Part shown: in pieces, positions 25,519 through 59,262 of the stretch
Numbering within the stretch: the first letter of the stretch is position 1
Layout: each line of letters starts with the position of its first letter
Origin: Halorubrum depositum
Lineage (GTDB): Archaea; Halobacteriota; Halobacteria; Halobacteriales; Haloferacaceae
Assembly (NCBI RefSeq): GCF_007671725.1
Contig: NZ_VCNM01000002.1
Span: 868,001 to 932,000 of the forward strand
Reading direction: 5' to 3'
DNA: 64,000 bases
Position numbers and translations under genes: made by a program
Notes under the pieces: model-generated
What the model was told of the DNA's origin: nothing
What the model saw: only the letters and a program-made list of their open reading frames with translations
The model's database searches: none

Positions 25519-26005
25519 TACCGCCCCTTACGTGGGCGCTCCTAAAGCGGTTTGGCTCTCTGACTCGGTATGTGGGATAGCAGTTGATGGGTACGGTGAT
25601 ATATTATAAGTGCAGAACGGAGTTCGATCGGGTAGCGCCGACGTAGCACCGGCTGTTCGCGTATAATTCGGAATTTACGCGGCGAACACTCGCAAAGCCC
25701 CAGCCGCTCGGCCGAATGAGATCGGTGACTCGACGCTGAACACCTCCAAAGCCCCAGCCGCGAGGACGGCGCACGCTCGCTGCGCTCCTCGTCACTCGCT
25801 GGGCTCGTTCCTGCGGTGCTTGCGTCGCCTGCCCCGTCCTCGCGGCTGCCCCTTTGAATTCCGCCCGACCGCAACCGCCCCGCACCTCACGCCTCCCCAG
25901 CCTCGTCGCTGACGCCGCCGGCGCCAGCGACTCCCTCGCGCGGGCGGTTCGCGCCGCTTCGCGGCGCTCACCGGCGCACGCCACCGCGGTCTATTTATAA
26001 ATAGC
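25519..26005. repeat. intergenic region with dispersed hairpin element, copy 1 (25687-25905)
   Basis: No gene is seen. An AT-rich start (ATATATTATAAG near 25600, GTATAATTCGG near 25657) is followed by two modules, CACTCGCAAAGCCCCAGCCG (25687-25706) and CACCTCCAAAGCCCCAGCCG (25741-25760). Then comes a perfect 15-bp inverted repeat (25755-25769 with 25834-25848) around a 64-nt loop, then CTTTGAATTC and a third module CACCTCACGCCTCCCCAGCC (25883-25902). The same layout occurs at 41.3 kb (reversed) and 59.1 kb. Open frames crossing it look like proteins but share no family; I treat them as spurious. A 14-bp palindrome CTATTTATAAATAG (25991-26004) abuts the aroD stop. Confidence 0.8.
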
Positions 26006-40987: not shown

Positions 40988-41536
40988 GCGCCGTACTTCG
41001 GTACTCGTCTTAAAAAGCGCCCCGGTCCGCGGCGATCCGTCCCGACCGCCGCAGGCGACGGCGCCGACGGAGACGTGATATTCAAACCCGAGAGCGGCGG
41101 CGCGCCTCCGAGCGGCCGCCATCGGCGGCCGCGAGGAGCCCGTGCGAGGTCGCCGGCGACGTCGCCGCCGGCTGCCAGAGAGACCGGAGGTCTCTCGCTG
41201 GAGTCGGTGGTCCGGAGCGAAGCGGAGGACCACCGACGAGGATGGGGAGGCGTGAGGTGCTGTGCCGTGCGGGATGGGACTCAAAGGGGCAGTCGCGAGG
41301 ACGACGCAGGCGATGCAAGCACCGCAGGAACGAGCGCAGCGAGTGACGAGGAGCGCAGCGAGCGTGCGTCGTCCTCGCGACTGGGGCTTTGGAGGTGTTT
41401 ACCGACGATCCGAAATCAACCGTGTCTAGCCGAGCGGCTGGGACTTTGGAGGTGTGTACCGACGATCCGGTGTCGATCGCTTATAAAAGAGCGAACCGCT
41501 TCCGTCGAGAGTCGACGTCGCGCTCTCGCCGACCGT
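40988..41536. repeat. intergenic region with dispersed hairpin element, copy 2 (41240-41454, reversed)
   Basis: No gene in 549 bp. Reading on the minus strand: TTATAA-type AT-rich start (41480s), module CACCTCCAAAGTCCCAGCCG (41454-41435), module CACCTCCAAAGCCCCAGTCG (41397-41378), a perfect 18-bp inverted repeat (41290-41307 with 41366-41383), then module CACCTCACGCCTCCCCATCC (41259-41240). Beyond it are extra hairpins, for example GGTGGTCC...GGACCACC (41208-41234) and AGAGACC...GGTCTCT (41181-41199). The arms differ from copy 1 at several places but remain fully complementary. Frames running through it are spurious. Confidence 0.8.
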
Positions 41537-58865: not shown

Positions 58866-59262
58866 ATCGGATTCACGGGCTCGACGCCCATAACGTGGGC
58901 GGGGACGTGCGTGTCACCCGGCCGTACGAAGCGTGGAATCAGCGTGGGGATGACGATCGCAAATAAATACTTGCCGGCGCGGTTCCCATCTTCGAAATCC
59001 CAGCCGACTGAGAATCGATCGTGGAGACCTCCAAAGCCCCAGCCGCGACGGCTCGCGCACCTCGCTGCGGTCCTCAGTCGCTCGCGTTGCTCGCTCCCTG
59101 CGGTCCTTACGTCGGTGTGCTTCGCCCTCGCGGCTGCCCCTTTGAGTCCCGCCCCGCACAGCACCGCAACCGCACCTCACGCCTTCCCAGCCTCGGCGCA
59201 CGGGCCGGCGCGGCTCCGTCCGCGCCGGTGGCTTTTCGTCTGCGCCCGCGTTCCCCTGACGT
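58866..59262. repeat. intergenic region with dispersed hairpin element, copy 3 (59026-59192)
   Basis: No gene in 397 bp between the divergent reductase-like and FAD-oxidoreductase genes. After CGCAAATAAATAC (58957-58969) come a weak module TCTTCGAAATCCCAGCCG (58989-59006), the module GACCTCCAAAGCCCCAGCCG (59026-59045), a 9-bp perfect stem (59040-59048 with 59128-59136) continuing as an interrupted pairing, then CCCTTTGAGTC and the module CACCTCACGCCTTCCCAGCC (59173-59192). This copy is the most diverged in the stem but keeps complementarity. Two other copies are at 25.7 and 41.3 kb. Confidence 0.75.

Follow-up and report, generated by a model that had tools for sequence, protein, structure and literature searches.

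What is the structure that recurs, in nearly the same arrangement, in three intergenic gaps of a 64,000-nucleotide stretch of the Halorubrum depositum genome (hereafter the window)? An earlier note had described it as an element of about 200 bp, with two modules some 55 bp apart, a long inverted repeat and a closing third module, and had suggested either a functional RNA or a mobile structured element. The modules indeed lie where the note had placed them, with A-to-module-3 start distances of 142, 138 and 147 bp in copies 1 to 3, as claimed, and their numbers in the window (five of module A vs 0.02 expected by chance, three of module 3 vs 0.00) leave little to coincidence. A search of the window with a covariance model of hairpin 1 returned exactly these three copies at 124-135 bits, the next match scoring 17.5 bits. 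The distance of about 55 bp between the two A modules holds for copies 1 and 2 (54 and 57 bp) but not for copy 3, whose first A is degenerate and lies 39 bp away. Likewise, the fixed layout stood, but the element does not close with the third module and runs on past it (Table 1). The sole Rfam match in the window is an S15-Halobacteria ribosomal protein leader (RF03143; 43530-43600, 70 bits).

Table 1. Features of the three copies, in window coordinates.
Feature	Position	Strand	Basis or remark
Intergenic gap holding copy 1	25519-26005
Copy 1, first module A (A1)	25690-25707	+
Copy 1, second module A (A2), left foot of hairpin 1, CAAAG-CCC-CAGC	25744-25761	+
Copy 1, hairpin 1 with CCC/CCC internal loop	25744-25862	+	covariance model 124.5 bits; fold z-score -5.0 to -6.6; covariation
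Copy 1, module B GCTGCCCCTTTGAATTCC, end of hairpin 1	25845-25862	+
Copy 1, module 3 CCTCACGCCTCCCCAGCCTCG	25885-25905	+
Copy 1, hairpin 2, slot palindrome TCGCTGACGCC..GGCGCCAGCGA	25906-25930	+	sequence; slot statistics
Copy 1, hairpin 3 and end motif E	25938-25987	+	E = CGCACGCCACCGC, 25975-25987
Copy 1, TTTATAA, self-complementary, TATA-like, directly outside E	25994-26000	.
Intergenic gap holding copy 2	40988-41536
Copy 2, TTTATAA upstream of first module A	41481-41487	.
Copy 2, first module A	41434-41451	-
Copy 2, hairpin 1 including second module A (41377-41394) and module B (41276-41293)	41276-41394	-	covariance model 134.8 bits; fold z-score -6.4
Copy 2, module 3	41237-41257	-
Copy 2, hairpin 2, TCGGTGGTCC..GGACCACCGA	41204-41236	-	sequence
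Copy 2, extra double-hairpin unit in the hairpin 2-hairpin 3 linker	41149-41203 (approximate)	-	unit recurs in other copies
Copy 2, hairpin 3 and end motif E (41094-41106)	41094-41148	-
Intergenic gap holding copy 3	58866-59262
Copy 3, degenerate first module A CTTCGAAATCCCAGCCGA	58990-59007	+
Copy 3, hairpin 1 including module A (59029-59046) and module B (59133-59150)	59029-59150	+	covariance model 128.2 bits; fold z-score -4.1
Copy 3, module 3	59175-59195	+
Copy 3, hairpin 2-like GC palindrome; element truncated after it, without hairpin 3 and E	59196-59233	+	sequence

Throughout the copies of this genome the modules follow one strict order, A(A)-hairpin 1-B-module 3-hairpin 2-hairpin 3-E, over a total of ~280-350 bp. 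The 5' start consists of one or two units of 54 or 57 bp, each made of a TATA-like box and module A (CTCCAAAGCCCCAGCCGC), and leads into hairpin 1 (~110-120 nt), at whose foot CAAAG-CCC-CAGC pairs with GCTG-CCC-CTTTG, so that a stem of 5 bp is followed by a 3x3 C/C internal loop and then by a long stem of variable sequence. Hairpin 1 passes into module B, its AGTCCCRCC tail, and from there through a linker rich in CA to module 3; hairpin 2 is a slot occupied by many unrelated palindromes, and beyond it come CTCCCTCGC, hairpin 3 and, as the end, motif E (GCCACCGC), behind which TTTATAAAT often stands. In 20 of 21 pairs the two A modules are spaced by a multiple of 3 (54/57/51), and we read these spacings as two subfamilies of a tandem unit. 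A coding origin was rejected on the grounds that the A-to-module-3 spacing is not a multiple of 3 and that no coding signal overlaps the copies; the earlier view of an element that carries no protein, and is structured rather than decayed from coding sequence, is supported.

Many copies (e.g. copy 2) hold additional double-hairpin units in their loops or linkers. Two or three such units of 50-60 bp recur in the hairpin 1 loop or the linkers of copies in the own genome (L031, L048, L053, L054, L057, L058, L073), as exemplified by GTTCGAGACGCC..GGCGTCTCGTGATGACGAGAGAGC..GCTCTCTCGAAC and CATCAGAACGC..GCGTTCTGATTGGCTCACGAGAGC..GCTCTCGTG; these are possibly separate small mobile repeats. A further recurring motif, GTGGTGTTGCTGTCGGCTGTTTAT, is found beside the TATA-like boxes upstream of module A at L136 and L130 and, in the own genome, at L005 and L059.

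In hairpin 1 (80 sequences) 97.4% of the cells are paired and 17 of the 24 pairs show double changes, the double-change cells numbering 268 vs 74.5 in shuffles and at most 16 in slid versions. Hairpin 3 (65 sequences) is paired in 92.4% of cells, with 141 double-change cells vs 44.8 shuffled, and a stem of at least 5 is formed at the edges of the hairpin 2 slot in 76% of cases, a figure that falls to 29% if halves are exchanged among copies. Folded individually, copies reach z-scores of -4.1 to -6.6, whichever strand is taken. At orthologous sites (n=8), 26 pairs are compensated on both sides vs 18 one-sided changes. The mean likeness of hairpin 1 is 0.73 between orthologous copies vs 0.76 between unlinked ones; orthologous hairpins being no more alike than unlinked ones, this region evidently turns over fast while its fold is kept. 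The CCC/CCC loop is retained in nearly all copies. L042 (G000:C1:810179-814201) is the sole copy in which the internal-loop CCC of A2 has become GGG, giving a perfect palindrome.

The count of three copies is exact for the window but falls far short of the genome, in which the family comprises ~79 loci in 3.18 Mb. Every complete copy checked agrees with the earlier observation that the element lies only between genes and in both orientations: all 66 complete copies with flanks are outside genes, as are all 56 credible multi-module clusters, whose order is never scrambled (2.05 Mb surveyed, 85% coding). The element occupies 7.5% of convergent gaps, compared with 3.1% of the divergent and 2.3-3.3% of the tandem ones, which makes occupancy 2.5-2.9 times higher in the convergent class than in either of the others (p 0.012 and 0.0007); in tandem gaps it shows no strand preference (13 to 10). 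The best pair of own-genome copies is 92% identical over at least 200 bp, and since near-identical copies are absent there is no sign of a recent burst. On G000 C1 minus-oriented copies prevail over the first 0.9 Mb and plus-oriented ones beyond 0.95 Mb, runs that may have to do with the direction of replication. Draft contigs end within copies of the element (the end of G000 C2 and the start of C3, L075 and L076; many contig ends of SD626R), which makes the element an assembly breakpoint.

A covariance-model search of other haloarchaeal genomes, which the earlier note had proposed as a check, located the element in 32 of 59 genomes and 17 of 29 genera; neither chance-level copy numbers elsewhere nor copies inside genes lacking the conserved module spacing, the two outcomes the note had set against its own reading, were observed. 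Module 3 occurs 14-178 times per genome in eight Halorubrum genomes and is patchy outside Halorubrum (reversed-pattern control 0), several genera of the same family having few or no copies. The core GCCCCTTTSAGTCCCRCC is present in 122 of 195 sampled genomes, which represent 42 of the order's 66 sampled genera; the reversed control gave hardly any matches. The variant shared by these 122 genomes comprises the 5-bp foot, the CCC/CCC internal loop, the long variable stem and the AGTCCCRCC tag, and the foot pairs change together across families around the same loop (CAAAG/CTTTG in Halorubrum, GAAAG/CTTTC and GGAAG/CTTCC elsewhere). In several genera the hairpins form inverted tag-to-tag pairs spaced by 24-235 bp; such pairs are found in G026, G027, G019 and G188 and are absent from Halorubrum. 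In G026, a genome of another family, an inverted pair of hairpin 1 units encloses a module 3-hairpin 2-hairpin 3 part. Terminal inverted repeats are lacking, as the earlier note held, in the Halorubrum copies, but the element of G026 bears an inverted second hairpin 1 at its far end, and the Halorubrum form may correspond to the left-hand part of an ancestor that was symmetrical. No match was found in phages or, with the exact core pattern, in 2.9 million viral contigs, and plasmids gave only four weak partial matches; a viral or plasmid origin was rejected on these counts.

Among relatives with recognisable synteny, 15 orthologous sites are occupied, in the same orientation, and the own genome is without the element in 38, some of which rest on distant flanking matches. 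In the clean unoccupied cases the own gaps measure ~20-350 bp vs ~430-700 bp. The near relative SD626R (flanks ~90% identical) has 10 sites occupied and 9 unoccupied. Such differences fit insertion or deletion alike, and the unoccupied sites could be losses; because intergenic sequence diverges too fast between species, element ends and target duplications are not resolvable at orthologous sites. Of the two natures that the earlier note had left side by side, presence and absence at orthologous sites favour the mobile one, while the conserved pairing favours a function as a folded single strand, be it RNA or single-stranded DNA.

Overall, we are dealing with a dispersed, high-copy, intergenic and non-coding element of fixed module order, in which pairing is kept by double changes and whose copies are gained or lost between species. 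We lean, with somewhat better than even confidence, towards a mobile palindromic element that is non-autonomous and would be the haloarchaeal counterpart to repeats of the REP/REPIN type; it may work like these or like PATE elements, an analogy by which membership in either is not claimed. A putative protein would recognise the element as a folded single strand, either RNA or the single-stranded DNA present during replication. Its recognition sites would be the single-stranded linkers and the conserved foot (CAAAG-CCC-CAGC/GCTG-CCC-CTTTG-AGTCCC), and it would copy the element into new intergenic sites. Stem interiors could then vary freely as long as they stay paired, other small hairpin units may insert into loops and linkers, and insertions would be tolerated mainly where neither a gene nor a promoter is struck, which would lead to the excess between convergent genes. 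The inverted hairpin 1 pair around the middle part in G026, by its analogy with REPINs or foldback elements, also speaks for mobility.

On the other hand, the scarcity of matches on viruses and plasmids sits oddly with a mobile element, and neither a recent burst nor a mobilising factor was found. The search for mobilising genes covered Y1 transposases (PF01797), which are missing from the own genome and from 11 of 20 copy-rich genomes and show no correlation with copy number; IS200/IS605 mobilisation was therefore rejected, and REP/RAYT and PATE/IS605 mechanisms that depend on a resident enzyme are not supported. That the structure has been constrained for so long suggests that the element serves some purpose besides mobility, and it may have a host role as RNA or chromosome element. 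We propose, tentatively and at less than even confidence, that the family represents a class of mobile structured nucleic acids, hitherto undescribed and found across the haloarchaea. Such an element would be modular, its hairpins being exchangeable around a foot whose CCC/CCC loop does not vary, and its spread, possibly RNA- or single-strand-based, would require no Y1 transposase.

The very strong covariation, beyond chance, would also suit a functional RNA family, each copy being transcribed into a folded RNA with a host role, stand-alone or within neighbouring transcripts. TATA-like boxes do stand ~36 bp before A and ~8 bp after E (on the E side in 90 of 169 copies vs 6 of 169 shuffles), but they are self-complementary and so directionless. 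An asymmetry of stem mismatches, with A.C far exceeding G.T on the plus strand (83 to 16), at first agreed with a minus-strand RNA that tolerates G.U; however, it rests on few columns, and in a larger set of 150 hairpin 1 sequences the overall ratio is 69 to 29, whereas counting by column gives only 9 to 7, which weakens its support for a minus-strand RNA. Considering also that the lack of orientation preference relative to neighbouring genes argues against a cis role in their transcripts, and that most compared orthologous sites are unoccupied and Rfam offers no match, we find a functional RNA family unlikely. The excess in convergent gaps, the rarity on plasmids and absence from viruses, and the conservation of the single-stranded linkers could alternatively point to a DNA-level chromosome element (a protein-binding hairpin, or a barrier to supercoiling or transcription collision), kept between genes and above all between convergent ones. 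Yet promoter avoidance would give the same excess, and with a copy number ranging from ~14 to 178 within one genus, few or none in several genera of the same family, and more than half of the compared sites unoccupied in relatives, this account appears decidedly improbable.

Finally, the pairing might have arisen without selection, if template switching copied one hairpin arm onto the other and repair produced the double changes, against the background of an old repeat. Many double changes are in fact G-C to C-G flips that bypass G.U, hairpin 1 shows the fast turnover described above, and the perfectly paired GGG of L042 points the same way. Arm correction should, however, erase the CCC/CCC loop, which survives even in other haloarchaeal families; unpaired modules are conserved too, and the spread of whole copies is left unexplained. 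We therefore give this explanation very little credence, and return to the mobile palindromic element as the preferred reading.

With up to ~180 copies per genome and an occurrence in 42 of the 66 sampled genera, the element appears to be among the more abundant non-coding haloarchaeal repeats. It is apparently unnamed so far: Rfam has no entry for it, and the literature searched (by sequence strings and keywords) yielded no description. As pairing is conserved while the letters vary, sequence-based repeat masking and annotation tend to miss it. Identifying what recognises the conserved foot would bring to light either a novel route of mobilisation or a novel structured RNA, in archaea that are amenable to genetic work.

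Among known systems, the structured RNAs of Rfam share with the element a conserved secondary structure with covariation, but no family matches it, even at a relaxed threshold. The PATEs of Haloquadratum (PMC3119063), compared by description, are likewise haloarchaeal, without coding capacity, too short for a transposase and endowed with internal palindromes; they share with the Halorubrum copies the lack of terminal inverted repeats, and their loops are struck by smaller inserted repeats (SMR-A). On the other hand, the near-terminal palindromes of PATEs are related to the ends of IS605-type transposons, whereas in our element no IS605-like termini were recognised and this genome, which has no IS605-family Y1 gene, shows that no such transposase is needed. 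PATE mobility is seen in strain-specific insertions; the presence/absence differences observed here are between species. REP/REPIN repeats with their RAYT (PMC3733652) differ in their hairpins (20-40 nt vs ~110 nt here, where three hairpins and linkers are present), in their GTAG or CGTC tag (here AGTCCCRCC) and in the resident RAYT (Y1) transposase that this genome and 11 of the 20 copy-rich ones lack; they resemble the element in being dispersed, intergenic and high-copy, in combining a palindrome with a conserved unpaired tag, in stems with alternative complementary letters, and in the inverted tag-to-tag hairpin pairs of other haloarchaeal genera. Unlike MITEs and foldback elements, the Halorubrum copies have no second end and no demonstrated target duplication, and their interior stems covary rather than repeat a single sequence; the full element of G026, however, is bounded by inverted hairpin 1 copies with outer ends GGAAGCCCCC..GGGGGCTTCC, as in elements of that kind.
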